Assembly (NCBI RefSeq): GCF_000374645.1
Contig: NZ_KB894801.1
Span: 434,001 to 498,000 of the forward strand
Reading direction: 5' to 3'
DNA length: 64,000 bases
Source: Arhodomonas aquaeolei DSM 8974
Lineage (GTDB): Bacteria; Pseudomonadota; Gammaproteobacteria; Nitrococcales; Nitrococcaceae
Numbering within the stretch: position 1 is the first letter of the stretch; each line of letters starts with the position of its first letter. The notes below the pieces were generated by a model. That model had not been told where the DNA came from. It did no database searches and was given only the letters and a program-made list of their open reading frames with translations. This document shows, one piece after another, positions 2,854 through 39,002 of the stretch. The translations under genes were made by a program, and so were the position numbers.

Positions 2854-3411
2854 CTACAGCCGCTCGCGCGCCGCCGCGACCCAACCGTTCACCCGCTCCT
2901 GGGAAACGACCATCTGCCGTGCCTTGAGCTGCTCGGTCAGCCGTGCGGCATCGGTGTCCGCCAGATCGCGGAACGAGTGAATGCCAAGCTCGGCAAGGCG
3001 CTTCTGCACCGCCGCACCGATGCCCTTGATGGCGGTCAGGTCGTCCGCGCTACCGCCAGGGTTAGCCGGGGATTGCCCGGTCGCCGCGTTGGCACCCGCG
3101 CCACCGGTGTCGGGGGCACCCGCCGAGGTGGGAGCACTTGCCGGTGCGGACGCGGGCTTCGGCGAACCCTCGGCGCTGGCGGCCTCGCCGTCCCCCTGCC
3201 CGCCTGCCGGCGTGGCGGAAGCCCGGGGCGCCTGCGGGGTTGCCGGTGCCTCGGCACCCTGCCGTTTCGCCGTGGTCTCGCTCCCGCCCCGGGAACTCGT
3301 GGGCGTCGCCTGCGCCGAGCGTTCGCGGCCCTTCGACTCCGGGGCCTCGTCGATCCGCGGCAGCCACCAGAACACCATCTCCATCCAGCGTTTGAGCCAT
3401 TCCGTCCACAT
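2854..3411 (-). CDS. helix-hairpin-helix protein with tryptophan-rich N-terminus and long linker
   Basis: The 185-residue protein has three parts. An N-terminal aromatic, amphipathic helix (MWTEWLKRWMEMVFWWLP) could lie on a membrane or bind a partner. A low-complexity Ala/Pro/Gly/Ser/Thr linker follows (about 25-120). The C-terminal domain (about 120-180) contains DDLTAIKGIGAAVQKRLAELG, a helix-hairpin-helix motif of the kind found at the C-terminus of some NuoE-like and DUF4332-like proteins. A DNA or protein binding role is an inference from the motif. AGGAGG precedes the ATG. It stands alone, convergent with the Nudix gene. Confidence 0.6.
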   Translation of the reverse strand: MWTEWLKRWMEMVFWWLPRIDEAPESKGRERSAQATPTSSRGGSETTAKRQGAEAPATPQAPRASATPAGGQGDGEAASAEGSPKPASAPASAPTSAGAPDTGGAGANAATGQSPANPGGSADDLTAIKGIGAAVQKRLAELGIHSFRDLADTDAARLTEQLKARQMVVSQERVNGWVAAARERL

Positions 3412-3583
3412 GGCAACCTCCTGCCTATGTCACCCGATCCCCGCTCAATCTAACCGGGACGATGCAGTGCAGCAAACGAAAACCGTCGACCCGATCCGCA
3501 TGGCTGGGTACCAGGGCGCAGACGTGCCCGTGCCCATCGCGTATCCTGCCCGCGGTCGGACACCTGCAGGATAGCCGCCGAAC

Positions 3584-3952
3584 ATGTCCCGTCTACTGAT
3601 CAACCTACGCGACGTCCCCGACGACGAGATCCTGGAGCTGCGCGGCATGCTCGAGGCCAACGGCATCCCCTACTTCGAGACCGAGCCCAACCGCTGGGGC
3701 ATCTCCATGGGGGCGATCTGGCTGGAGGACGACGACGATCTGGAACGGGCCCGGGCGCTGCTCGCCGACTACCAGGCCGAGCGCCAGCGCCGGGAGCGCA
3801 ACGACTACCGCGAGCGGCTCGCACGCGGCGAGGCCGACACCCTCTGGCAGCGCGCGCGGCGCCGGCCGCTGGCAGTCCTCTTCTACTGTGCTGCCGCGGC
3901 GCTCATCCTCTACCTCTCGACCCAGCCCTTCCTGGATCTGGCACTGCCCTGA
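3584..3952 (+). CDS. DUF6164 family membrane protein
   Basis: The 122-residue protein begins MSRLLINLRDVPDDE and contains YFETEPNRWGISMGAIWL, the hallmark of the DUF6164 family. It ends in one predicted membrane helix (about 98-117, LAVLFYCAAAALILYL). The N-terminal 75 residues resemble a small ferredoxin-like fold followed by a basic coiled region. Function is unknown for the family. It is convergent with the macrodomain gene, ten bases apart. Confidence 0.75.
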   Translation: MSRLLINLRDVPDDEILELRGMLEANGIPYFETEPNRWGISMGAIWLEDDDDLERARALLADYQAERQRRERNDYRERLARGEADTLWQRARRRPLAVLFYCAAAALILYLSTQPFLDLALP

Positions 3953-3962
3953 GCGGCGGTGC

Positions 3963-4490
3963 TCAGACCGCATCCAGCAAGCGCTGATGCATCTCCCGGG
4001 CCCGTTCGTCCGGGAGCACGAAACGCACGCGCCGTACCGAGACGAGTCCACGGGCGGCCTCACGGACCGCGCGCATCGCCACCGGCGCGGCCTCCGCCAT
4101 GGGATAACCGAAGGCACCGGTGGACAGCGCCGGGAAGGCGACCGACGCCAGTCCGGCGTCGTCGGCCAGCTCCAGCGCCCGGCGGTAACAGCGCGCCAGC
4201 AGCTCGTCCGAGGGCGTGTCGCGGCCGTACACCGGACCCAGACAGTGGATGACGTGCGGGTTCGGGAGTCCGTGACCGCCGGTCATCACCGCCTCGCCCG
4301 GGGCGATAGGCGCCAGCGGCGCGCACTCCTGCGCGAGGCCGGAGCCAGCCGCGCGGTGGATGGCCCCGGCGACACCACCGCCCGGCATGAGGCGGGCGTT
4401 GGCGGCGTTGACGACAGCGTCCATATCCGGCTGGCGGGTGATGTCGCCGACGACGCACTCGATCTGGACCTTACCCTCTCCTGTGGCCAT
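3963..4490 (-). CDS. macrodomain protein (O-acetyl-ADP-ribose deacetylase family)
   Basis: The 175-residue protein is a stand-alone macrodomain. The ADP-ribose-binding motifs are clear: VVGDITRQPDMDAVVNAAN near residues 13-31, then GGGVAGAIHRAAG, and VAFPALSTGAFGYP for the distal loop. Relatives hydrolyse O-acetyl-ADP-ribose or remove ADP-ribose from proteins. I start it at the ATG at 4490 because upstream residues are compositionally unlike coding sequence. It is divergent from the methyltransferase gene. Confidence 0.9.
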   Translation of the reverse strand: MATGEGKVQIECVVGDITRQPDMDAVVNAANARLMPGGGVAGAIHRAAGSGLAQECAPLAPIAPGEAVMTGGHGLPNPHVIHCLGPVYGRDTPSDELLARCYRRALELADDAGLASVAFPALSTGAFGYPMAEAAPVAMRAVREAARGLVSVRRVRFVLPDERAREMHQRLLDAV

Positions 4491-4679
4491 GACCCATCCT
4501 CCGTGCCTGTCTGTGCGATCGGCCCGGTCACCGGGACCCGGCGCTGGCCGGCGGCGGCGACAGCGCCGGCCCCGCGGGGACGACCGTGCCAATGACCCGG
4601 TCCGTACGGCACACTGTGGCGGCAGCCCGCGCACCGTCAACCCGCGCGTGCCGGGATCACACCGGCAGGGAGACGCCCG

Positions 4680-5318: not shown

Positions 5319-5956
5319 AGCCGTGCCAGCGCCTGCGGGTCAGCGATACGCAGCCAGCCGCGGTGGCGCTCGATCCAGCCGGCGTGCTCAAAATCCCCGA
5401 GCAGTCGGGTGATCACCTCCCTCGCGGTGCCGAGCTCGGTGGCGAGCTGCTGGTGGGTGGCCCGTACCGTGTCCGCCTCCGCACGGTCCACAAGCAGCTC
5501 GGCGAGACGCGCATCCACCCTACGGAAGGCAAGCTCCTCGACCAGCAGCATCAGCGACTGCAATCGCGCGCCATAGCTGCGCAGCACCATGTCACGGAAG
5601 GCCGGCGAGCCCGACATCAGGTCGTCGAACACCGCCGGGGGCACCAGCAGTGCCTCGCTCGGACGCTCGGCGACGGCGGTGGCGTGATAGAGCCCCTCGT
5701 CGAGGAGACAGCCGATGGACAGCGTACACATCTGCGCCGGCAGGATGCGGTAGAGCACGATCTCGCTGCCGGCCGCGGACAGCATATGAACGCGGATGCT
5801 GCCGCTGTGCAGTATGGGCAGGCCGCTGCAGCGCTCCCCGAGCCCGAACACCCGCTGACCGGCCGCGAAGGCGACCTCCATGCCGTCGGTAATCAGGCGC
5901 TGCCGGGCGCGCTTGTCGAGTTCCGGCAGCCAGTCCATACCCCAGGTCGATGACAC
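5294..5956 (-). CDS. Crp/Fnr family regulator with a C-x5-C motif
   Basis: The 220-residue protein has an N-terminal cyclic-nucleotide-binding-like barrel (about 20-130), a long dimerisation helix and a C-terminal winged helix (THQQLATELGTAREVITRLL). There is no FNR-type cysteine cluster at the N-terminus. Instead the barrel carries AQMCTLSIGCLL, a cysteine pair spaced C-x5-C that I recall from a Crp/Fnr subgroup often found beside DUF2892/YgaP-like proteins. Thiol-based sensing is therefore a reasonable inference. The start is a GTG at 5956 preceded by GGGAGGG. It is divergent from a DUF2892 gene, and a palindrome lies between them. Confidence 0.85.
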   Translation of the reverse strand: MSSTWGMDWLPELDKRARQRLITDGMEVAFAAGQRVFGLGERCSGLPILHSGSIRVHMLSAAGSEIVLYRILPAQMCTLSIGCLLDEGLYHATAVAERPSEALLVPPAVFDDLMSGSPAFRDMVLRSYGARLQSLMLLVEELAFRRVDARLAELLVDRAEADTVRATHQQLATELGTAREVITRLLGDFEHAGWIERHRGWLRIADPQALARLYAGPETA

Positions 5957-5986
5957 GGCACGCCCTCCCTGTCGTGGCGACGAATG

Positions 5987-5999
5987 GTGACAAAGTCAC
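5987..5999. promoter_or_regulatory. palindromic operator GTGAC-AAA-GTCAC, candidate Crp/Fnr site
   Basis: A perfect 13-bp inverted repeat lies between the divergent Crp/Fnr and DUF2892 genes. A plausible promoter for the DUF2892 gene is CTGACC at 5999-6004 with CATTAT at 6023-6028. This places a start near 6035 and the palindrome centre near -42, the classical class II position for Crp/Fnr activators. The same palindrome, differing only in the spacer, occurs at 21011-21023 upstream of cydA. Binding by the adjacent regulator is an inference. Confidence 0.5.
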
Positions 6000-6058
6000 T
6001 GACCGATGCCGTTATTTTCCAGCATTATGACGATGGGAAAAAGGGAGGTTATAAGGAT

Positions 6059-6256
6059 ATGAAGGCAAACGTCGGCACTATCGACCGTGCGGTACGGGCC
6101 ATTGTCGGGATCATTCTGATCGCGCTGGTGTTCGTGGGGCCGCAGACGCCCTGGGGCTGGATCGGCCTCATCCCCCTCGCCACCGCGGCATTCAGCTTCT
6201 GCCCGGCCTACCGGCTGCTCGGTCTCAACACCTGCCGCATCCGCGGCAGCCACTGA
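6059..6256 (+). CDS. DUF2892 (YgaP-like membrane domain) protein
   Basis: This 65-residue protein starts MKANVGTIDRAVRAIVGIIL and has two hydrophobic segments (about 13-28 and 31-48). It ends with FSFCPAYRLLGLNTCRI, including the conserved C-P-x-Y and a second cysteine typical of DUF2892. This domain forms the membrane anchor of the rhodanese YgaP and also occurs alone. AAGGAT before the ATG at 6059 favours this start over a longer frame beginning in the promoter. Partnership with the divergent Crp/Fnr gene suggests a role in sulfur or thiol stress; this is inferred. Confidence 0.8.
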   Translation: MKANVGTIDRAVRAIVGIILIALVFVGPQTPWGWIGLIPLATAAFSFCPAYRLLGLNTCRIRGSH

Positions 6257-6262
6257 AACCCT

Positions 6263-6294
6263 TTCGGAGGGGCGGTCCGCCGCCCCCCTCCGAA
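6263..6294 (+). terminator. hairpin terminator after the DUF2892 gene
   Basis: TTCGGAGGGGCGG pairs with CCGCCCCCCTCCGAA across a very short loop, leaving a two-base bulge. It begins seven bases after the stop at 6256. There is no long T run, so efficiency is uncertain. Confidence 0.55.
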
Positions 6295-6382
6295 GGCCGA
6301 CCGATCGGCTCCTCACAGAGGTCCTGTCGTGCGTCGGTCAGTCGAGCTGACACCTGACAATCCCTCCGGGAAGGTTAGTACA

Positions 6383-6418
6383 ATGGAGGCCGTCGCAGAC
6401 GAGCGGGTGACGAAGTGA
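6383..6418 (+). CDS. putative 11-codon leader peptide overlapping the permease start
   Basis: An ATG at 6383, with AAGG ten bases upstream, opens an 11-codon frame (MEAVADERVTK). Its TGA overlaps the GTG start of the next gene as GTGA. The downstream GTG lacks a good ribosome binding site of its own and no other in-frame start exists before a stop at 6376. Translation of the permease may therefore depend on reinitiation after this leader. No regulatory codon run is evident. Confidence 0.35.
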   Translation: MEAVADERVTK

Positions 6419-7074
6419 CCATTCCCGCGGACCTCTTTCCCGCCTCCTGGCTGTGGCTCGCCAACGCCCTGCTGGCCGCCTTGCTGGTGGCCGCCGTGCG
6501 GCGTGCGCCGTGGCGTCTGCTGAAGCGCTCCGAGCTGCAGCACGTGTTCTATGCCAGTGCCCTGCTGGTCGCGCTGCTCTGGCAGATGCGCGCCGGCATC
6601 GCCCCGGAGCTGCAGCTCCACCTGCTGGGCATGACCAGCCTCACGCTGATGTTCGGCTGGCGGCTCGCGATCGTGGCCGGCACGCTGGCGGCGGCGCTGT
6701 CCATCGTCGCCACCGGCGGTGCATGGCCGACGCTGGGTATCAGCGCGCTGCTCGGCGCCGCCCTGCCGGTGGCCATCACCCACGCGCTCTCCAGGGTGGT
6801 CGAGCGGGTCCTGCCGGCCCACTTCTTCATCTACGTATGGGTGAACGCCTTCCTGGGTGCGATGATCTCGGCGGGCACGGCCTACCTGTGTCTGATCGGC
6901 CTCGCCTCCGCGGCGGCCGCCTCGGCGGCCGCCCTCGCCCCGGACTACCTGCCGGTGCTGCCGCTGCTGATGTTCCCGGAGGGGTTCATCAACGGCGCAG
7001 TCATGACCATGCTCGTCGCTTACCGCCCGGAGTGGGTGAGCAGCTTCGACGACGAGCGCTACCTCAACCGCTGA
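6415..7074 (+). CDS. CbiM-like energy-coupling factor transporter permease
   Basis: The 219-residue membrane protein has six or seven predicted helices and ends with the signature PEGFINGAVMTMLVAYRPEW. This identifies the proteobacterial energy-coupling factor permease family related to CbiM. These proteins are the substrate-binding membrane subunits of nickel, cobalt or similar ECF importers. No transporter ATPase or T component is adjacent, so substrate and partners are unknown. The start is GTG at 6415. Confidence 0.75.
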   Translation: MTIPADLFPASWLWLANALLAALLVAAVRRAPWRLLKRSELQHVFYASALLVALLWQMRAGIAPELQLHLLGMTSLTLMFGWRLAIVAGTLAAALSIVATGGAWPTLGISALLGAALPVAITHALSRVVERVLPAHFFIYVWVNAFLGAMISAGTAYLCLIGLASAAAASAAALAPDYLPVLPLLMFPEGFINGAVMTMLVAYRPEWVSSFDDERYLNR

Positions 7075-7095
7075 GTACGCCCGCGTCGCGCCCGG

Positions 7096-7713
7096 TCAGC
7101 CGGTGACGTCGTCGCGGTGCTCGTCGATCCACAGCACCCGGTCGGAACGGGCCTGCAGGTCCGTGGACACGCCGGCCGAGAAGACCGCCAGCTCGACACG
7201 CTTGCCGCTCTCCGAGAGATGCTCGACGGCGTCGATGAGATCGCCGTCGCCGGACGACAGCAGCAGTGTGTCGTAGCGGTCCCTGTGGATCAGCGCGAGG
7301 GTGGCGAGGCCGACGTCCACGCCCATCTGGCGCTGGTTGACGAGGTTGTGGGCGTCACCGCCGTGGGGACAGGCAAGGTCCACCTTGGTGCCGCAGTCCT
7401 GGCAGTAGGCGTTACGCACCCGTTCGTTCTTCAGCCCGTAGAGCTTGACGATCAGGTTCGGCCCGGCCGGGGCGGCGGTCTGCAGCCAGCCGTGGAACCG
7501 GTCACGGGCCTCGTGGGCCTCGTTCTGCACGCTGTTGAGATAGTAGCCGCGCCAGACCGGGCCGAGCTCGCGTTCGACGAGATCCCGCAGCTTGAGGTAG
7601 TCGACCCGCTGATTGGGGCCGAAGGCCTGCATGTTGACGGCGTGGATGTAGCTGGCATCGATCAGCCAGAGGCGGCGGCCGGGGGCGGTGTGGGTCGGTT
7701 CGTGCTCGCTCAT
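7096..7713 (-). CDS. NYN domain protein (putative PIN-like RNase)
   Basis: The 205-residue protein has the acidic pattern of NYN/LabA-like nucleases: D19 in LWLIDASY, VDVGLATLAL in the middle and LLSSGDGDLIDAVEHL towards the C-terminus. NYN domains are PIN-like metal-dependent ribonucleases. A cysteine/histidine stretch (AYCQDCGTKVDLACPHGGDAH) inserted between the first and second acidic motifs could bind zinc. I start it at the ATG at 7713; the longer frame upstream is not convincing. It is convergent with the permease gene. Confidence 0.75.
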   Translation of the reverse strand: MSEHEPTHTAPGRRLWLIDASYIHAVNMQAFGPNQRVDYLKLRDLVERELGPVWRGYYLNSVQNEAHEARDRFHGWLQTAAPAGPNLIVKLYGLKNERVRNAYCQDCGTKVDLACPHGGDAHNLVNQRQMGVDVGLATLALIHRDRYDTLLLSSGDGDLIDAVEHLSESGKRVELAVFSAGVSTDLQARSDRVLWIDEHRDDVTG

Positions 7714-7762
7714 GGTCCGCCAGCATACAGGAGTCGGGGAGGCGTCGCCGCCATCGCGATCC

Positions 7763-8149
7763 TCACCTGCCGTGACGGCGGGCGGCGCGGTTGATCTGTA
7801 TGGACCAGCTCGCATGGGCGAGCACAGCCCCGAGCCCGAACACCAGCAGCGGCGCGAGTGCGCCCTCGGCGTGCTCCGGGCGGGCCCCGCGCAGCAGCCA
7901 CAGCGCCACCCCACCCACCGCCAGGGTCGGCACCGTAACCACCGCGCGGCTCAACGCCGGGCTGTCCGGCAGGGCCAGTGGCCCGGCGAGCATGATGAAC
8001 GCCGCCAGCGTCCCCACCCAGACCCCGGCCAGGAAGTCGCCGGGCAGCGTACCGGCAGTGAATCCCATCACCGGTGCCACCAGCACCGCCGCCAGCAGCG
8101 TACCCGCGGCAAGACGCCGCCTCAGCGCCAAGAGATCCGTCCCGTTCAC
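7763..8149 (-). CDS. four-helix membrane protein, unknown
   Basis: The 128-residue protein has four predicted membrane helices spread over residues 12-118. The start is a GTG at 8149 with AGGAGG six bases upstream, which rules out the 166-codon extension. Topology and size are reminiscent of small ATP synthase I-like or DUF-type membrane proteins, but no signature motif was recognised. It lies 49 bases upstream of the NYN gene on the same strand and may be cotranscribed with it. Confidence 0.5.
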   Translation of the reverse strand: MNGTDLLALRRRLAAGTLLAAVLVAPVMGFTAGTLPGDFLAGVWVGTLAAFIMLAGPLALPDSPALSRAVVTVPTLAVGGVALWLLRGARPEHAEGALAPLLVFGLGAVLAHASWSIQINRAARRHGR

Positions 8150-8329
8150 GCGTTCCTCCTCACTCCGTGCCGGCCGCACCGGCGCTCTATGACGCCGCGA
8201 TCCTACTAAGGCGGTAACGCCGACGCCACCTCCGGCGGTCAACGCAGGCCGCACACGCGTCATCGGGGTGACGGCACGACGACCGCGCCGGTACCCTCCT
8301 GCAGGGAGGATGCACGAGGGGGCGGCTTG

Positions 8330-8806
8330 ATGCTGGGACGGCTCGCCAAGTCTCTAATGGCGCTGGCGGTCGCGGTGGCGTTCGTGGTGATGGGCTATCG
8401 CTGGCAGCAAAGCGTGAAGGACACGATGGCGGACGCACAGGCGGTCGACGCCACGGTGATCGCCACCGGCATCGAGCGTCAGGAGGACGACACCGGTGGC
8501 CAGACGACGGTCTCCTTCACGCCGACGGTCCGCTACCGCTTCGACTACCGCGGCGAGGGCCACACCACCGACGGGATCTGGCCCGCGGCCACAGTCAGCG
8601 GCGAGCGGGACTGGGCAACGGCGTTCATCGAGGACTACCCGGTGGACGCGACGGTCACGGCGCACGTCCCCGACGGTGAGCCGGACCGCGCCTTTCTCGT
8701 GAACGAACGCACCTACGGGCCGTGGATCCCCATGGGCATCGGCGGCGTGCTGCTGGTGCTCTCGCTCTACGACCTGCTCCGGGCGCTACGCCCCTACCAA
8801 ACCTAG
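8330..8806 (+). CDS. DUF3592-like membrane protein
   Basis: The 158-residue protein has an N-terminal membrane helix (about 5-22), an extracytoplasmic beta-rich region and a second helix near the C-terminus (about 131-150). The middle has alternating strand patterns (TVSFTPTVRYRFDYRGEGH, then ATVTAHVPDGEPDRAFL). This matches the DUF3592 layout, in which a soluble beta domain sits between two helices. An upstream TTG at 8327 is also in frame; I prefer the ATG. Function is unknown. Confidence 0.6.
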   Translation: MLGRLAKSLMALAVAVAFVVMGYRWQQSVKDTMADAQAVDATVIATGIERQEDDTGGQTTVSFTPTVRYRFDYRGEGHTTDGIWPAATVSGERDWATAFIEDYPVDATVTAHVPDGEPDRAFLVNERTYGPWIPMGIGGVLLVLSLYDLLRALRPYQT

Positions 8807-8837
8807 CCGTATAACCCCTCACCCCCGAGACATACAG

Positions 8838-8861
8838 GGTCGGCTGCGCCTGACAGCCAAC
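8838..8861 (+). repeat. REP-like palindrome, copy A
   Basis: GTCGGCTG pairs with CAGCCAAC around a seven-base loop. Its right arm and flank (CAGCCAACATC) are shared with the copy at 45146-45172, and its left part (GGTCGGCTGC) is shared with the inverted copy at 45013-45037. Confidence 0.5.
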
Positions 8862-8884
8862 ATCGTCGCGGACAGGATCCCGGG

Positions 8885-8972
8885 CGGGTAGGTCGTGCAC
8901 GGCCGCAGGCCGTGTGCAACGCTGCCGGAACCGGCCCGGAGTGCCGCAGGCCTGTGGCGCACGACCTACCCG
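8885..8972. repeat. REPIN-like composite element with 14-bp terminal inverted repeats
   Basis: The ends are perfect inverted repeats, CGGGTAGGTCGTGC and GCACGACCTACCCG. Each half has its own short palindrome (ACGGCC-GCA-GGCCGT on the left, a GCAGGC-rich one on the right). The GTAG near each outer end is the conserved tetranucleotide of REP sequences handled by RAYT transposases. Two REP units facing each other within 88 bp is the definition of a REPIN. It sits between the DUF3592-like gene and the K+ channel gene. No RAYT gene is in the window. Confidence 0.55.
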
Positions 8973-9028
8973 GAATTCCATTCGCTACCCTGCAGCAGGG
9001 TCAAAACACTGCGCCCCTATCCGGTCGC

Positions 9029-10759
9029 CTAGCGTTCGCGGCGCGCGGCGAGCCGGCGCCACAGCCAGCCGTCCGGGCGCTGCTCCCCGCTCGCCACGTA
9101 GCGGAAGACGTCCCGATTGGTCACGGTACGCTGCATCCGCACCCGTTCCCCGTGACGCGCGCACAGCAGCACATGGTCGCCGCGGGCAAGGGCGTGATCC
9201 GGCCCGGGCAGCAGCGTCTGGCCACCATCGCGCTCGATCATCAGCACCTCCGCGGCTAGGGCGAGGTCCCGCTCCCGCGGATCGCGCAGCAGCTCCGCCA
9301 CCGTGACGGTCGTGCCCTCGTCCAGGGCCGCGTACAGCGCCGGCGCCTCGCCGGGCTCGACGGTCAGGGTCCAGACCTCCGGCGAAGCCTCACCGACGCG
9401 GGCGTGCCAGCGCTCGAGCAGCGTCCCGATCCACTCGTCGTCTCGCTCGCGGACCGCCTGGAGGAAGCGCGGCAGCATCGGGGTGGCGAGCAGCCGGAGC
9501 ATGCGCACCGCCATGATGCTGCTCGACTCCATGATCCGGTCCACCGCTGCCGCCTCGAACACGGCATGGCTCGCGCGGTCGTTCTGCCGCGCGACCAGGT
9601 AGAGCTCGCCACGAAGCTCGCGGGCGGTCATGACGATGGAGAGATTGTCGGTGTCGTCGTCCGTTGCCGCGATCACCCCGGCCACGTCCGCCGCCTCGAT
9701 ACCCGCCTCGCGCAGGGTCACCGCCTCGGTGCCCTTGCCGCCGATAACCGTGGTCTCCTTCATCACGGAGGCGGGCACGGTATCCGGCGTCACCAGCACC
9801 AGGTCCATGCCGTGCTCGCGCAGGCGCCGGTAGAGGGCGCGGCCCAGGGCGGTGTAGCCGCAGACGATCCAGCGCCCGGCGGGCGGCAGCCGCTCCTCGT
9901 CGGCGGTATCCGCGTGGACGCTCATCCAGCTGTAGAGGCGGTGCGCCTGCGGTGCCTCCATGGCCATGACGAAGCCGCCGGCGAAGGTGAGGTACGGGTC
10001 GATGATGTAGTCGGTGCCGAACGAGGCCATGTTGGCACGGGTCTCGTCGCGCTCGGCACGCGCGATCACCGGCAGCCGGGGGTTGAGCAGCTTGGTGGTT
10101 ATGGCGATGTGCAGGTTGGTGTGATCGTCGTCGGTCACCGCCAGCACCGCCCGGCAGCGCGGATCACCGAGCCCCGCGGCCAGCAGGTTGTCCGTGAAGT
10201 TGGCATCGCCGCAGAGATGCGGCACGAACGAGCGCAGGCCCTCCACGCTGACCCCGTCGAGCTGGCGCTCGTCCCAGTCGATCACCACCGCGCGCCCGCC
10301 CCCGCCGGTGATTTCGCGCACGAGTTGCGAGCCCGTGTCGCCGTAGCCGCAGACCAGTGTGAACGGCTCCACCAGCCGGGAGACGCTGCGGCGGAAGCGG
10401 TTCCAGGTGACCACGCGCTGGAACACCGGATCGCGGATGATGCCCACAATGGTGCCGATCGCGTAGAACCAGCTGATCACCAGCAGGTGCAGACTGACCA
10501 CCACCCACAGGCGCTGGGCCTGGTTGAAGCCGGTGGGCAGCTCGCCGAACCCGATGGTCGTGGCAGTGTAGCTCACGAAGTAGAAGGCGTGGAGGAAGTC
10601 CACGCGATAGGGCTCGCCGGCGGCCGTGGTGCCCTCGATGAGCACCAGCCCGAGCACGGAGACGGCATAGGCGACGATCAGCGTGAGCAGCGGCGCGCGC
10701 ATGCGCCGCAGTACCAGCGGGACGATACGGTGACGCGGGACGTCGATCAGCTCCGACAT
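9029..10759 (-). CDS. K+ channel protein with two RCK/TrkA-N domains
   Basis: The 576-residue protein has two N-terminal transmembrane helices flanking a pore loop with the K+ selectivity filter TTIGFGE (about residues 68-74). Two regulator-of-K+-conductance units follow. The first has Rossmann motif LVCGYGDTGSQLVREI and the second IVCGYTALGRALYRRL, each followed by TrkA-C-like sequence. A single polypeptide carrying two RCK modules resembles fused channel/regulator proteins. The likely role is ligand-gated K+ flux in osmotic or pH homeostasis. It is the last gene of a three-gene minus-strand set with DUF6394 and a small membrane protein. Confidence 0.88.
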   Translation of the reverse strand: MSELIDVPRHRIVPLVLRRMRAPLLTLIVAYAVSVLGLVLIEGTTAAGEPYRVDFLHAFYFVSYTATTIGFGELPTGFNQAQRLWVVVSLHLLVISWFYAIGTIVGIIRDPVFQRVVTWNRFRRSVSRLVEPFTLVCGYGDTGSQLVREITGGGGRAVVIDWDERQLDGVSVEGLRSFVPHLCGDANFTDNLLAAGLGDPRCRAVLAVTDDDHTNLHIAITTKLLNPRLPVIARAERDETRANMASFGTDYIIDPYLTFAGGFVMAMEAPQAHRLYSWMSVHADTADEERLPPAGRWIVCGYTALGRALYRRLREHGMDLVLVTPDTVPASVMKETTVIGGKGTEAVTLREAGIEAADVAGVIAATDDDTDNLSIVMTARELRGELYLVARQNDRASHAVFEAAAVDRIMESSSIMAVRMLRLLATPMLPRFLQAVRERDDEWIGTLLERWHARVGEASPEVWTLTVEPGEAPALYAALDEGTTVTVAELLRDPRERDLALAAEVLMIERDGGQTLLPGPDHALARGDHVLLCARHGERVRMQRTVTNRDVFRYVASGEQRPDGWLWRRLAARRER

Positions 10760-10772
10760 GGCCGCCGCCGCG

Positions 10773-11156
10773 TCAGCGCTGCATGTTGACGGTCTCGATC
10801 ACGAGGATGGTCACCGAGGCCAGGTTCGCCATCAGTGCCCCGCCGGAGAGCGAGACGATGCTGCCCATCACCGCCGGCGTCAGGCCCACGCCGGTGACGT
10901 GCATGGACATGCCCCAGACCACCGCCGCGGTGATGAGCTGCAGGTCCGCGACCAGGCTCGCCGCCAGCAGGATGGCACCGATCTGCGTGCGCTCGCCGAA
11001 CTTGAGCACGGTGGCGATGAGCGAGACCACGAGCGCCGCATACAGCTCGAAGACGTTGTGGTGAGCCGGGTTGTCGAACTCGCCGATGAAGAACCCGAAG
11101 TTCAGCGTCAGCGCGAGCAGGATGAAGAAGCCGAAGACGACCTTTTCCAGATTCAT
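10773..11156 (-). CDS. DUF6394 family membrane protein
   Basis: The 127-residue protein starts MNLEKVVFGFFILLALTLNF and has four predicted helices. The block FELYAALVVSLIATVLKFGERTQIGAILLAASLVADLQLI is diagnostic of DUF6394. The gene ends 13 bases before the K+ channel gene, a pairing I recall from other halophilic gammaproteobacteria. An accessory role for the channel is an inference from that linkage. Confidence 0.8.
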   Translation of the reverse strand: MNLEKVVFGFFILLALTLNFGFFIGEFDNPAHHNVFELYAALVVSLIATVLKFGERTQIGAILLAASLVADLQLITAAVVWGMSMHVTGVGLTPAVMGSIVSLSGGALMANLASVTILVIETVNMQR

Positions 11157-33879: not shown

Positions 33880-35628
33880 TCACAGCCGCCAGCGCGCACT
33901 GCGCTGCTTCATCCAGCGAAGCAGATCCCGCGCCGGCATCGGACGACCGAAGAGAAACCCCTGAACGCTGTATACCTCAAGGGAGCGCAGGTAACGTGCC
34001 TCGTCCGGGGTCTCTATCCCTTCGGCGACGGTCTCGAGACCGAAATTGTGCGCGAGCCACAGGATGGTGCGGGTGATCGCGGCGTTGGTCTCGTCCCGGT
34101 GCACGTCGGTGATGAATGCGCGGTCGATCTTGAGCGTGGTGATGGGCAGGCGATGGAGGTAGCTCAATGAGGAGTAGCCGGTACCGAAGTCGTCCACGGC
34201 GATGCTGACGCCGAGGCCCCTGAGATCGTTGAGCTTCTGGAGGTTCTCGTCAGAGATGTCGAACAGCGCCGTCTCCGTGAGCTCGAGCTCCAGGGACGGC
34301 GGCGGCAGCTGGTAATGCTCCAGGGTGTCGCGGATCGTTGCGGCAAACCCGGGGGCACGCACGTCCTCGGCGGAGACGTTCACCGCAACCCGCTCGATCC
34401 CCACCCCCTGCCGACGCCATTCGCTCATGGTCGCGCACACGTTCACAAGCATGCAGTGATCGATTCGGGGCATGAGGCCGCACGTCTCGGCAACGGCAAG
34501 GAACTCCCCGGGCGGGACCAGCTCCCCGCTGGGCAGACGCCATCGCACCAGCGCCTCGACCCCCAGTATCCTGCCCGTCTCCAGACACAGCTGGGGCTGG
34601 AACCACTGCTCGAACTCGCCTTTCTCCAGCGCCTCCAGCAGCCGTGCCTCCGTGCGCACGAACCGTAACGCCTCCTGCTGGACCTGGCGGGAGTAAAATA
34701 CCGGCCCGACATCGTCGGTCTCCGAGAGGGCGCTGGTCGCCCGGTCGAGGACCGTCGCGGCATCCGCCCCGTCCTCCGGGTAAAGGCCGACGCCGACCCG
34801 CGGGGTAATGCGCACGCGCTCGTCACCGATCTCCACCGGCGATTCCGCGATCTGGCGGATTCTCCCGCACACCTCCAGCACCTCGTTCACCGTGGTGCCC
34901 GGGCGATGCAGCAGCCCCCATTCGTCCGTGGACAGCCGCGCCAGCGAGGCGGTATCACCCAGTAACGTCTGCAGGCGCCGGGAACAGGCGGTCACCGCCC
35001 GTTCAAGCGCATGGTGGCCGAAGGACTTGAGCACCCGGCCCAGGGGGATACGGATCACGGTCACCGGCAGCTGCCGGTTGAGCACCGACGCCTCACGTAT
35101 GGCGGCGACCAGGCGGTCGAGGAACAGGCTCTTGTTCGGCAGCCCGGTCACACTGTCGTAGTTGACCAGGTAAGCCAGGTGATCGCGCTGGGCGATGGCC
35201 ATGGAACGGGCGCGTAACAGCATGGCCACGCGCTCGCTGAACTCGCGGCGCTCGATCGGTGTGACGATGAACTCGTCGGCCACATCCCATAACGCCGCCA
35301 GCCGGCGATCCAGCTCGGAGCGCGAGAGCAGCAGCACGACCGGCAGGAAGGTCGGCGCCTCGCGCCGCTTCGCCTCCTGTAGCCGGCGGCGCCAGTGCCG
35401 GAATCCGCCGACGTCGGCGATGGCCAGATCGAAGCCGTCCTCAGGCAACCCGCACTTGCCCGGCTCGAGCACCGTGCAGTGATCCTGTAGGTGGCCCTCG
35501 AGAAGGCGCCGGTTGCCGGAGGCGCCGAGCAGGAGCAGAACGCGGTCGGCAGGCACGGTATCGTCCACCGTGTCCGTCGCCACCCCGCGCCACGCTACCC
35601 CGTGGAGATCATCATACCGGTAGTTCAA
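33880..35628 (-). CDS. receiver-like/degenerate GGDEF/EAL protein, predicted c-di-GMP phosphodiesterase
   Basis: The 582-residue protein has an N-terminal receiver-like domain (about 28-140), a GGDEF domain whose motif is degraded to STDEW (near 228-240), and a complete EAL domain. All EAL catalytic residues are visible: EALVRW, NVS, ELTETAL, DDFGTGYSS, KIDRAF, EGIET and QGFLFG. It should hydrolyse cyclic-di-GMP, with the GGDEF domain regulatory at most. The start is TTG at 35628, with GGGAGG seven bases upstream; no ATG lies near. It is the third gene of an operon with a receiver protein and a KaiC-like ATPase. Confidence 0.85.
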   Translation of the reverse strand: MNYRYDDLHGVAWRGVATDTVDDTVPADRVLLLLGASGNRRLLEGHLQDHCTVLEPGKCGLPEDGFDLAIADVGGFRHWRRRLQEAKRREAPTFLPVVLLLSRSELDRRLAALWDVADEFIVTPIERREFSERVAMLLRARSMAIAQRDHLAYLVNYDSVTGLPNKSLFLDRLVAAIREASVLNRQLPVTVIRIPLGRVLKSFGHHALERAVTACSRRLQTLLGDTASLARLSTDEWGLLHRPGTTVNEVLEVCGRIRQIAESPVEIGDERVRITPRVGVGLYPEDGADAATVLDRATSALSETDDVGPVFYSRQVQQEALRFVRTEARLLEALEKGEFEQWFQPQLCLETGRILGVEALVRWRLPSGELVPPGEFLAVAETCGLMPRIDHCMLVNVCATMSEWRRQGVGIERVAVNVSAEDVRAPGFAATIRDTLEHYQLPPPSLELELTETALFDISDENLQKLNDLRGLGVSIAVDDFGTGYSSLSYLHRLPITTLKIDRAFITDVHRDETNAAITRTILWLAHNFGLETVAEGIETPDEARYLRSLEVYSVQGFLFGRPMPARDLLRWMKQRSARWRL

Positions 35629-35674
35629 GCCCTGCCTCCCCGTCGTCCGACGGTGTGCAAGTGGTTACACTGCT

Positions 35675-36046
35675 TCATCCCGGACCTGCCAGATCGCGGA
35701 CGATTCGCAACAGGGCCACCTTGGCGACGGGTTTCTGCACCACGGTGCGGGCACCGCTCGCAACGGCACGACCACCGAGAGAGAGTTCCTCGGGCGCGGA
35801 GAGCACCACGAAAGGCACCTCGTTCGCCTGGAGGACCGCGCACATGGACCAGACCGAGGGGCCGAAGCCCGAGACGTCCACGAGCGCGAGCGCCGGCATC
35901 GGCGGCGCCGCCACCGCATCCGCGAGCGCGGTCTCGTCGTCGATGCCGATACCGCGATAACCGAGGCCCACCAGCGCCTCGCGGATCACGGCGACGTTGC
36001 CCGGGCGCTTCATCACGAGAAGGACGTCCTTGCCCCTGTCCGTCAT
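35675..36046 (-). CDS. single-domain response regulator (receiver) protein
   Basis: The 123-residue protein has a receiver-fold pattern: phosphoacceptor candidate in LALVDVSG, the switch Ser in FVVLSAPEE and the conserved Lys in VVQKPVAK. The paired N-terminal acidic residues are replaced by VMKRPGN, so metal binding may be weak. The ATG follows the kaiC-like stop by two bases (TAG-TC-ATG), indicating coupling. It probably links the KaiC-like ATPase to the downstream EAL protein; this is inferred. Confidence 0.75.
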   Translation of the reverse strand: MTDRGKDVLLVMKRPGNVAVIREALVGLGYRGIGIDDETALADAVAAPPMPALALVDVSGFGPSVWSMCAVLQANEVPFVVLSAPEELSLGGRAVASGARTVVQKPVAKVALLRIVRDLAGPG

Positions 36047-36048
36047 GA

Positions 36049-37494
36049 CTAAGGGTTCCGCTGTCGCGCCTGCGCGGTCATGAGGCCGTCTCCCAGACCA
36101 CGCAGCGGTTCCCCCCGACGGATGCTGCCCTCGTTCAGCTCGAAGGCGTAGAGCGTGTGGTCGAAATCGCTAAGCCGCTTCTTGAGCACGCTGATCGACT
36201 TGCACATCTCACCATCCAGCTCGACATAGCGCAGACAGATCACGTTATCGGCCAGATAGCTGATACTGCGCTCGGAGATGCTGCTCTGCCCGCTCATGGC
36301 CTCGATCTCGTTGATCAGCAGCACCGTCACTCCGACACGCGCCAGGGATTTTGCCAGCGCGTGCAGTCGCGCCTTGATGCCCTCGCCGTCCAGGGCCAGC
36401 TCGAAGCCGGCGATGCTGTCGAGCACCACCAGCTCCACACCCTCCTTGTCGACGTGTTCGCGCACACGCAGGGCGAACTCGTCGGCCAGGTAGCGCATCG
36501 GCTCGATCTGCTCAATGGTGAGCCGTCCTTTACGCGCAGGCTCACGCAACTCGATACCGAACCCCTCGGCACGCGTCAGGTACGAGGCCATCTCCTCCTC
36601 GAAGAGATAGATTCCGGCACGCATCCCACGGCGCAGCGCCTGCGCGACGAACAGCGAGGCAAAGGTCGACTTGCCGATACCGGACGGACCCGTGACGAGC
36701 GAAACCGTCCCGGCCTCCAGCCCGCCGCTGAGCATGTCGTCGAACGCCGCGATCCCCGTCGACCAGATCCCCCGCTGCTGCTCGGTGAGCTTGCTCTCGG
36801 GCGGACTCGGGCGCGGAAACACCTCCAGCCCACGTGCGCTCACGCGCATCTGATGAGGCCCTTCCCGGAACCCGGAACCGCGGAATTTGGTAACGCTCAG
36901 GGACGCGCCGATATCGTCACGGCCCAGCGCGATCACACCGTCGGCCATAAACTGGAGGTCGTCGTCGGGCAGGTCCCGGCTGCTCTCCGAGGAGAACAGT
37001 ACGGTGGCGCCCCGGTCGCGCAGAAAGCGCAGGAACGAAAGCACCTGCTTTCGATACTGGAAAACGTCGCTGGAGAGAAACCGCAGCTGGGTGAGCGAGT
37101 CGACGAACACGCGTGTCGGCGTCTCGGCCTCCACCGCGGAGACCACGAGCTCCGCCAGCGGCTGCTGCTCGACGTCCGACGAGGTGAACACATCGTAGCC
37201 CTGCTGGCCGGTGAAGAATTCCTCGTCCGGGGCCAGGCTGAGAAACCGGATGCCGTCTACATCGATACCCACCGAGGCGGCATTCGTGCGCAGCTGGTCC
37301 TCGGCCTCCTGAAAGCCGATGAACAGTGCGTTGCCCTCATCCCCGGCCGCTGCGAGAAAATTCAGGCCGAGCGTGGTTTTGCCAAGGCCCGGCCCGCCAC
37401 GCACCAGATACGCCGAGCGCGGCAGCAGCCCGCCGTCGAGGATGGTATCCAGCCCACCAATCCCGGTGGACAGTCGGTCTCCGTCTCCACGCAT
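36049..37494 (-). CDS. KaiC-like double RecA-domain ATPase
   Basis: The 481-residue protein has two KaiC-type domains with Walker A motifs GGPGLGKT (33-40) and GPSGIGKS (269-276), and the paired glutamates of the second domain near 299-301 (LFEEEM). The C-terminal segment SISERSISYLADNVICLRY aligns with the KaiC autophosphorylation region, where cyanobacterial S431-T432 become S412-Y413 here. No kaiA or kaiB gene is in the window. Non-cyanobacterial KaiC homologues are usually signalling ATPases rather than clocks. It heads an operon with a receiver and an EAL protein. Confidence 0.88.
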   Translation of the reverse strand: MRGDGDRLSTGIGGLDTILDGGLLPRSAYLVRGGPGLGKTTLGLNFLAAAGDEGNALFIGFQEAEDQLRTNAASVGIDVDGIRFLSLAPDEEFFTGQQGYDVFTSSDVEQQPLAELVVSAVEAETPTRVFVDSLTQLRFLSSDVFQYRKQVLSFLRFLRDRGATVLFSSESSRDLPDDDLQFMADGVIALGRDDIGASLSVTKFRGSGFREGPHQMRVSARGLEVFPRPSPPESKLTEQQRGIWSTGIAAFDDMLSGGLEAGTVSLVTGPSGIGKSTFASLFVAQALRRGMRAGIYLFEEEMASYLTRAEGFGIELREPARKGRLTIEQIEPMRYLADEFALRVREHVDKEGVELVVLDSIAGFELALDGEGIKARLHALAKSLARVGVTVLLINEIEAMSGQSSISERSISYLADNVICLRYVELDGEMCKSISVLKKRLSDFDHTLYAFELNEGSIRRGEPLRGLGDGLMTAQARQRNP

Positions 37495-37769
37495 GCCCCC
37501 TCCTTGAACCTGCCCATCGCACAGCTTGCCTTACGATGCCGGCACCTGTTTTTCGCGCTTCCCGCACCTGCAAATTAGTTCAGCACACGAATAGTGCAAA
37601 TCATTATCGGAAAAGGCACTTAACGCCGAACGACGGTTTTTTCTGCAACCAGTTCAGCAGCGCCCCACCGGCGGCGTTTGCCCCATGCGTTGATTTCCGG
37701 ATAACGCTCGTCAAAAATCGTCGCGGGGACGTTCACTGCCGCTCGATCGGCGACACAGCAGGGGCATCG

Positions 37770-39002
37770 ATGACGGAGACAGCGACCCAGGTGCTCATGG
37801 CCCGCCAGCCTATCTTCGACACCGGGGTGAACGTCGTCGCCTACGAGCTCCTCTACCGCAGTCCGGACGGCCGCGGCCCATGCGGCCTGGTCGACGGCGA
37901 CCGGGCGACGAGCGAGGTCCTGATCAGCCGCTACACCAGCCTGCACTGGTCCGGCGGCAGCAGTGTCGTGCCCGCCTTCGTCAATCTGCCGCAGGACATG
38001 CTCGAGGCCGAGTCTCTGCCCGCCGTTCCCCCGGCGGAGCTGGTCATCGAGGTCCTCGAGGACGCCTCGCCCACACCGGCACTGATCACCGCCCTGAAAC
38101 GCTACCGCGAGACCGGCTACCGCATCGCACTGGACGATTTCGCCCATGCAGGACACCTCGAGCCCCTGATCGCCCTGGCGGACGTCGTGAAGCTCGATGT
38201 GCAGGCGCTCGGCGAACGCGGGCTGGCCGAACAGGTCCGGCTGCTCGCACCCCACAACGTAACGCTGCTCGCCGAGAAGGTGGAGACGCGCGAGGAGTTC
38301 GAGCACTGCCGCACGCTCGGCTGCACGCTCTTCCAGGGGTACTTCCTGCGCCGTCCGGAGCTGCTCACCGGGCGTGTGCCCGAGAGCAACCGCATCGTCC
38401 TGCTACAGCTGCTGGCCGCATTCGCTGACCCGGACGTGTCCACCCGGCAACTGATCGAGCTCATCGAACGCGACCCGCCGCTGACCTATCGCCTGCTGCG
38501 CGTGCTCAATTCCTGCGCCCTGGGTGTGCGTCATCCGGTAAGCAGCCTCAAGGACGCGCTGGTGCTGCTCGGGCGCCGGGAGGTACACAAGTGGGTCGCC
38601 CTGCTGGTGCTCGGCGCCCGGGACGGCACGCCCACGGAGCTCGTGCGCCAGGCACTCACCGTCTCGCGTATGTCCGAGTTGCTGGCCGGACGCAGCGGCC
38701 GCGCCGATCCCGACCAGGCGTTCTTCGCGGGTCTGCTCCGCCACATGGACGCCCTGCTCGACATCCCGCGGGAGACACTGTTTGCCGAGATCGATATCGG
38801 AACGGAGATTCGGGAGGCACTGGAAGGCGGACACAACGACGTCGGCGACGTCCTGGGCAAGGTATGCCTGTTCGTCGACGGCCGCTGGACCGAGCTGCCG
38901 CGCGGGGACGACCCGGCGATGCTGCAGGGCTGCTACGCGGACAGCCTGGACTGGACCAACGAGACCATGCAGAGCATGTTTTCGGTGGCATCCGATCCGT
39001 AG
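37770..39002 (+). CDS. EAL-HDOD (YuxH-type) signalling protein
   Basis: The 410-residue protein joins a divergent EAL domain (about 1-205) to an HDOD domain (about 205-400). The EAL part starts LMARQPIFDTGVNVVAYELLYRS, so the EAL motif itself is YELLYR. Other residues such as EVLED, LDDFAHAG, KLD and LLAEKVET are kept. The HDOD part has DPPLTYRLLRVLNSCALG. Such proteins generally bind rather than degrade cyclic-di-GMP. It is divergent from the KaiC-like operon across 275 bp, suggesting shared regulation. Confidence 0.85.
   Translation: MTETATQVLMARQPIFDTGVNVVAYELLYRSPDGRGPCGLVDGDRATSEVLISRYTSLHWSGGSSVVPAFVNLPQDMLEAESLPAVPPAELVIEVLEDASPTPALITALKRYRETGYRIALDDFAHAGHLEPLIALADVVKLDVQALGERGLAEQVRLLAPHNVTLLAEKVETREEFEHCRTLGCTLFQGYFLRRPELLTGRVPESNRIVLLQLLAAFADPDVSTRQLIELIERDPPLTYRLLRVLNSCALGVRHPVSSLKDALVLLGRREVHKWVALLVLGARDGTPTELVRQALTVSRMSELLAGRSGRADPDQAFFAGLLRHMDALLDIPRETLFAEIDIGTEIREALEGGHNDVGDVLGKVCLFVDGRWTELPRGDDPAMLQGCYADSLDWTNETMQSMFSVASDP

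Follow-up and report, generated by a model that had tools for sequence, protein, structure and literature searches.

Why should a KaiC-family ATPase lie in a row of genes with a small receiver-like protein and an EAL protein? The question arises in the window, that is, the whole 64,000-nucleotide stretch of Arhodomonas aquaeolei DSM 8974 DNA that was analyzed. An earlier note on this DNA, which placed the locus at 36049-39002, had proposed that the ATPase controls cyclic-di-GMP (c-di-GMP) through a phosphorylatable intermediary. All the features it named were found, but the receiver-like gene (REC1) and the EAL gene, at 33880-36046, fall outside that interval. The features of the region are as follows.

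37770-39002, plus strand: EAL-HDOD gene, with EAL and HDOD domains
36049-37494, minus strand: kaiC, SY type, 481 aa, two RecA-like domains (PF06745 and residue conservation in 98 relatives)
35675-36046, minus strand: REC1, stand-alone pseudo-receiver, 123 aa (AlphaFold2 receiver fold)
33880-35628, minus strand: NREC-GGDEF(dead)-EAL(intact) protein, 582 aa (TTG start with GGAGG ahead of it)
35167-35568, minus strand: NREC, the N-terminal pseudo-receiver adaptor of the EAL protein (PleD profile match and AlphaFold2)
34720-35163, minus strand: degenerate GGDEF domain, with STDEW replacing GGDEF (PF00990, 57 bits, residues 156-303)
33940-34644, minus strand: EAL domain with a complete catalytic set (PF00563, 245 bits, residues 329-563)

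On the minus strand, the genes run in the order kaiC, REC1, NREC-GGDEF-EAL. The gap from the kaiC stop codon (TAG) to the REC1 ATG is exactly 2 bases, and PF06745 matches the ATPase in two stretches (218.9 bits), confirming a double-domain KaiC closely followed by a receiver-like protein. The third protein was also as the earlier note described it, with a receiver-like domain, a dead GGDEF, and an intact EAL domain. Judged from sequence and arrangement, the chances are about even that the three minus-strand genes constitute one operon for a KaiC-driven c-di-GMP phosphodiesterase. No sigma-70 promoter in the divergent gap and no terminators were found above chance.

The EAL-HDOD gene is divergent from kaiC with 275 bases between them. 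Its start was assigned to 37770; the longest open reading frame begins at 37326 and overlaps kaiC. Although the divergent gene is real, it was excluded from the module because it was not found adjoining kaiC in the relatives examined. By eye, its protein apparently keeps E, N, E, DD, K, E, and Q at the EAL positions and has DDFAHAG where DDFGTGYSS is expected, which makes its predicted activity uncertain. A defence system was also considered and rejected, as PADLOC gave only a weak P-loop match of KaiC to mads_8.

The window KaiC has two RecA-like KaiC domains with Walker A intact in both. Its second domain carries Glu300, Ser412, and Tyr413, which we take, from the alignment and general knowledge, to be the counterparts of the catalytic Glu pair, S431, and T432 in the cyanobacterial protein, and the kinase residues of this domain are intact. 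Glu300 was kept in 98/98 relatives, Ser412 in 95/98 (Thr in the other 3), and Tyr413 in 95/98, placing the protein in the SY subfamily. Against the NCBIfam model circ_KaiC it scored 120 bits, where the cut-off is 546. With Tyr in place of T432, the cyanobacterial cycle of ordered Ser-Thr phosphorylation cannot run unchanged. The locus does not correspond to a circadian KaiABC oscillator: the phosphosite pair is Ser-Tyr, a search of the genome found no kaiA, and kaiB occurs only at other loci. The earlier remark that neither gene is nearby was thus right, yet two kaiB genes are present elsewhere in the genome, one of them overlapping a second kaiC.

Next, the two receiver-like domains were compared with known receivers. 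AlphaFold2 predicted a receiver fold for REC1 (pLDDT 89.5) and for NREC (pLDDT 88.6), the second helix of the latter being indistinct and its C-terminal helix 27 residues long. Foldseek searches against the PDB returned receivers for both, and among the NREC matches listed, PleD had the highest query TM-score (0.75). The NREC domain was unrecognised by Pfam; its profile search gave PleD as top match, with both PleD receivers aligning (E about 1e-18), and the REC1 profile also matched the PleD receivers. Given the predicted fold, a KaiB/SasA thioredoxin-like domain was rejected for NREC. REC1 can thus be called a stand-alone receiver as regards its predicted fold, but not by its residues: it scored 16.7 bits against PF00072 (cut-off 30.2), and its acidic pair is replaced by Met-Lys, with Asp57 and Lys105 retained. 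In window NREC, the acidic pair is Leu-Gly and the Lys position is Thr. Across the relatives, the second, metal-binding acidic residue of REC1 was non-acidic in 32/32 and the first was acidic in 6/32, while NREC had lost the first acidic residue in 86/86 and retained the Lys in 18/86. Neither domain therefore has the features of a phosphorylatable receiver (PF00072 match; acidic pair, Asp, Thr/Ser, and Lys), and because of these losses both are, by sequence, pseudo-receivers as defined in the review of Bourret et al., 2025 (PMC12632262).

This bears on the idea, put forward in the earlier note, of a phosphorylatable intermediary, which the two pseudo-receivers leave unsupported. In its full form, REC1 would be a true phosphorelay intermediate, phosphorylated on Asp57 and carrying the signal from KaiC, or from a kinase, to the EAL protein. 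Every REC1 in the set has Asp57 and nearly every one has Lys105, which could allow some phosphorylation chemistry, and receivers with substitutions in the acidic pair can retain some phosphorylation (PMC12632262). However, the second acidic residue, which would contact the metal directly, is lost in 32/32 REC1 proteins, KaiC is not a histidine kinase, and the operon contains no kinase. We consider a phosphorelay unlikely.

In the window protein, the EAL positions E, N, E, DD, K, E, and Q are all kept, as expected of a phosphodiesterase, and the catalytic residues were intact in 16/16 NREC-linked EAL proteins. The STDEW motif of its GGDEF domain is neither GGDEF nor GGEEF, the forms expected of a diguanylate cyclase; this site was dead in 10/10 proteins of the window type, whereas the other EAL type kept it in 6/6. 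These counts fit the previously suggested role of the protein in c-di-GMP breakdown.

To survey the linkage across genomes, KaiC relatives were collected from GTDB genomes, the window's order, a draw of its class, and plasmids, giving a table of 98 loci, 93 of which had at least 1 kb downstream of kaiC. An NREC protein lay directly downstream of kaiC in 87 of these 93 loci, a sample that is uneven since the relatives were gathered with the window's own KaiC as the query; REC1 was present in 32 of the 93. KaiC-NREC loci occurred in cyanobacteria, Chloroflexota, haloarchaea, gammaproteobacteria, and others. When 3840 open reading frames were screened, 85 of 88 NREC matches and all 34 REC1 matches fell in the gene or genes immediately after kaiC; two of the three NREC exceptions sit just upstream of it. 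Intergenic gaps in the module were often -4 to +17 bp. A search led by the NREC profile over 398 genomes of the phylum, a less biased but small check, gave four matches, three adjoining kaiC, all with EAL outputs. In Acaryochloris (L128, 3657-6386) and another cyanobacterium (L080, 2629-5389), kaiC and the gene for the NREC histidine kinase are oriented divergently, the latter not lying downstream.

Nine further loci carry KaiC-REC1-NREC-GGDEF-EAL, and eight additional loci carry KaiC-NREC-GGDEF-EAL without REC1. The KaiC-receiver-EAL linkage is thus conserved and not unique to this genome; uniqueness was the outcome that the earlier note said would refute its reading. Genome G494 encodes an NREC-GGDEF-EAL protein (L141, 4196-6499) and has no KaiC of this type, and an order-level relative (L009/L110) has a KaiC with no adjoining REC1 or NREC; therefore, neither partner strictly requires the other. 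KaiC and NREC distances were correlated (Spearman rho 0.79 overall, with 0/999 permutations as high), with rho 0.61 among locus pairs that have different outputs; for KaiC and REC1, rho was 0.88. As shared operon descent contributes to this co-divergence, the correlation supports KaiC-NREC contact and does not prove it.

The domains attached to NREC were diverse. The outputs, tallied with regular expressions and phmmer and cross-checked with Pfam counts, comprised about 56 histidine kinases, 16 GGDEF-EAL proteins, 5 HD-GYP proteins, 5-6 BAT/HTH_10 proteins, and 3 PP2C proteins. Pfam, applied to 86 NREC proteins, found HisKA in 55, HATPase_c in 55, GGDEF in 17, EAL in 15, HD-GYP in 5, HTH_10 or BAT in 5-6, and SpoIIE (PP2C-type phosphatase) in 3. 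The kinase count of 56, compared with 55 for HisKA, includes proteins assigned by reading sequences, and the EAL set reaches 16 once L111 is added to 15. NREC is homologous to the N-termini of the KaiC-linked histidine kinases in the surveyed loci. At least five outputs thus sit on a KaiC-pseudo-receiver front end: histidine kinase, EAL, HD-GYP, PP2C, and HTH. The KaiC-linked NREC proteins with a PP2C-type (SpoIIE) phosphatase (L055, 7827-8957; L061, 2432-3562; L041, 7580-8668) occur in Marinobacterium and a verrucomicrobial MAG.

On the KaiC tree, there were at least 10 changes of output class and at least 9 changes of REC1 presence. The clade that contains the window has full support (100) and comprises 13 rows, ten of which are KaiC-REC1-NREC-GGDEF-EAL, from the window's family, Halomonadaceae (Modicisalibacter, Vreelandella), Salinivibrio, and genome G413. 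A second clade (support 99) has KaiC-NREC-GGDEF-EAL without REC1 and with an intact GGDEF; both members scanned have a GAF domain. An AU test with both EAL types as one clade gave p = 0.36 and did not reject that grouping. Two loci from the window's own order (L114 and L115) carry KaiC-NREC-HD-GYP and lie near the second EAL clade. As the HD-GYP fold is unrelated to EAL, c-di-GMP phosphodiesterase outputs were acquired at least twice. The named carriers of KaiC-REC1-NREC-GGDEF-EAL (L010-L014, L105-L109, and L124) are halophile genera of different families, such as Halomonadaceae and Salinivibrio. Together with the grouping of the Salinivibrio KaiC with the window KaiC (support 99), this suggests that the whole operon was transferred between salt-loving bacteria.

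Simple co-expression has to be weighed against these data. KaiC, REC1, and the EAL protein might share one regulon and act independently of each other; operon linkage by itself shows no interaction, and both orphan KaiC and orphan NREC-EAL proteins exist. However, NREC stays constant while the output swaps among five types, nearly always after the same KaiC subfamily, and a dedicated adaptor domain is not predicted by co-regulation. Hence, co-expression without allostery seems improbable.

A broader reading, somewhat less likely than not (probability roughly 0.4), is that KaiC directly switches phosphorylation-independent pseudo-receivers, that this front end is a general plug-in for at least five outputs, and that in gammaproteobacteria of the window type c-di-GMP breakdown depends on KaiC. 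We infer that the state of KaiC would be relayed by protein contact through PleD-like pseudo-receivers to the c-di-GMP phosphodiesterase. In this scheme, KaiC would form a ring and change state via ATP turnover and autophosphorylation at Ser412, and REC1 and NREC would sense this through direct contact, without phosphoryl transfer to either of them. In PleD, contact between receiver and pseudo-receiver sets the dimerisation of the output (PMC12632262). REC1 and NREC may act like the two receivers of PleD, divided between two polypeptides, and their contact could alter dimerisation via the long helix that follows NREC, thereby raising or lowering EAL activity; the dead GGDEF might serve as a dimerisation or GTP-sensing element. 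As REC1 is absent from about two thirds of the loci, the REC1-NREC pair cannot be the general mechanism. In relatives, the KaiC-NREC front end carries other outputs instead: a histidine kinase, an HD-GYP domain, a PP2C-type phosphatase, or an HTH protein. The simplest guess for the input signal is the ATP/ADP balance, and the most likely physiological effect would be that the c-di-GMP level changes with the state of KaiC. The recurrence of the KaiC-adaptor unit with different enzymes, in both bacteria and archaea, gives it the look of a plug-in signalling switch.

Several known systems resemble this proposed switch. PleD, with its order receiver, pseudo-receiver, GGDEF, likewise has a receiver pair ahead of a c-di-GMP enzyme; in the window, however, the first receiver is a separate protein and has likewise lost its acidic pair, the output acts as a phosphodiesterase by its residues, and KaiC stands where PleD would have a sensor kinase. 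In the cyanobacterial KaiABC-SasA/CikA system, partners read the state of KaiC and pass it to an enzyme, as proposed here, whereas the window operon has no KaiA or KaiB, has Tyr at T432, and has no SasA-type thioredoxin-fold domain.

Closer relatives were described by De Luca et al., 2011 (PMC3164672), who distinguished three contexts: kaiC-kaiB with a histidine kinase or a GGDEF/EAL gene after it; an SY-type kaiC that lacks kaiB and shares a transcript with the gene of a histidine kinase whose N-terminus is receiver-like; and kaiC genes that often precede a receiver gene or lie close to GGDEF/EAL genes. The KaiC-Nt_HK operon of Ramlibacter tataouinensis (Rta_04330/Rta_04340) has a KaiC of the SY/TY/SF group followed by a receiver-like N-terminal module, as in the window, and its genes were found to be co-transcribed, but its output is a histidine kinase instead of an EAL domain. 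The Ramlibacter module was likened there to KaiB/SasA, whereas window NREC is a predicted receiver, the two being compared by description. As its output is GGDEF-EAL, the window protein falls outside the KaiC-Nt_HK (RtaNt) family. The third, 'black' context group has the same gene types near kaiC, with SY members NOC_1328, Caur_0239, and rrnAC0131; the shared N-terminal adaptor of the GGDEF/EAL proteins and the pseudo-receiver status of the receivers come from the present analysis.

For the Ramlibacter operon, the authors suggested an hourglass (PMC3164672), and the window operon could likewise be a KaiB-less hourglass or proto-clock driving daily c-di-GMP rhythms. The retained kinase residues of the second domain and the two kaiB genes elsewhere in the genome are in line with such a timer; however, the operon has no kaiB, the genome has no kaiA, the Tyr at T432 bars an unchanged Ser-Thr cycle, and the kaiB genes have other partners, which makes it very unlikely. 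A reverse flow, in which the EAL domain takes in the signal by binding c-di-GMP and NREC/REC1 then act on KaiC in the manner of the cyanobacterial KaiA pseudo-receiver, has a precedent in KaiA and CikA, whose pseudo-receivers belong to the input side of KaiC (PMC12632262), but is very unlikely, since the EAL catalytic residues are fully kept (16/16), unlike those of typical c-di-GMP receptors, and the kinases, phosphatases, and DNA-binding domains at the same place in relatives read as outputs.

How much of the module is new? A study from 2023 by Terrettaz et al. reportedly concerns Pseudomonas KaiC and biofilm. No paper on a KaiC-EAL module was found in the literature searched. The earlier view that the module is undescribed is nevertheless partly wrong, since the 2011 paper already reports KaiC with a histidine kinase and KaiC near REC or GGDEF/EAL genes (PMC3164672). 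Archaeal KaiC-family ATPases have been proposed as hubs of signal networks (Makarova et al., 2017, as cited in PMC5847659); as far as that citation conveys the proposal, the KaiC-NREC unit differs in spanning several bacterial phyla and including c-di-GMP outputs. What appears to be new, on sequence evidence, is that one adaptor domain joins SY-type KaiC to all these outputs, that the module has pseudo-receivers at both receiver positions, and that it acquired EAL and HD-GYP separately. A 2025 review (PMC12632262) describes the on/off switching of bacterial pseudo-receivers as a mystery, and gene order points to KaiC as the likely switch of a large pseudo-receiver family with easily assayed enzymatic outputs. 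If so, KaiC homologues in non-photosynthetic bacteria would have a concrete job, the clock ATPase family would be tied to c-di-GMP without KaiA or KaiB, and one adaptor domain would serve interchangeable outputs in bacteria and archaea.

Finally, the other Kai loci of the same genome were analyzed, with the following genes.

L118 (G000:C7), plus strand: kaiC at 5429-7156, kaiB at 7122-7436, and a GGDEF-EAL gene at 7433-10927
L119 (G000:C5), minus strand: kaiB at 4331-4648 and a PAS-PAS-GGDEF gene at 2954-4255

The KaiC of the first locus is of the ST type, and its kaiB overlaps both kaiC and the gene for the output protein, which has 1164 residues in the order PAS-GAF-PAS-GGDEF-EAL with an intact GGDEF motif. 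At the second locus, kaiB lies 75 bp upstream of the gene for a PAS-PAS-GGDEF diguanylate cyclase. Counting the window operon, Kai proteins and c-di-GMP enzymes are therefore linked three times in this genome.
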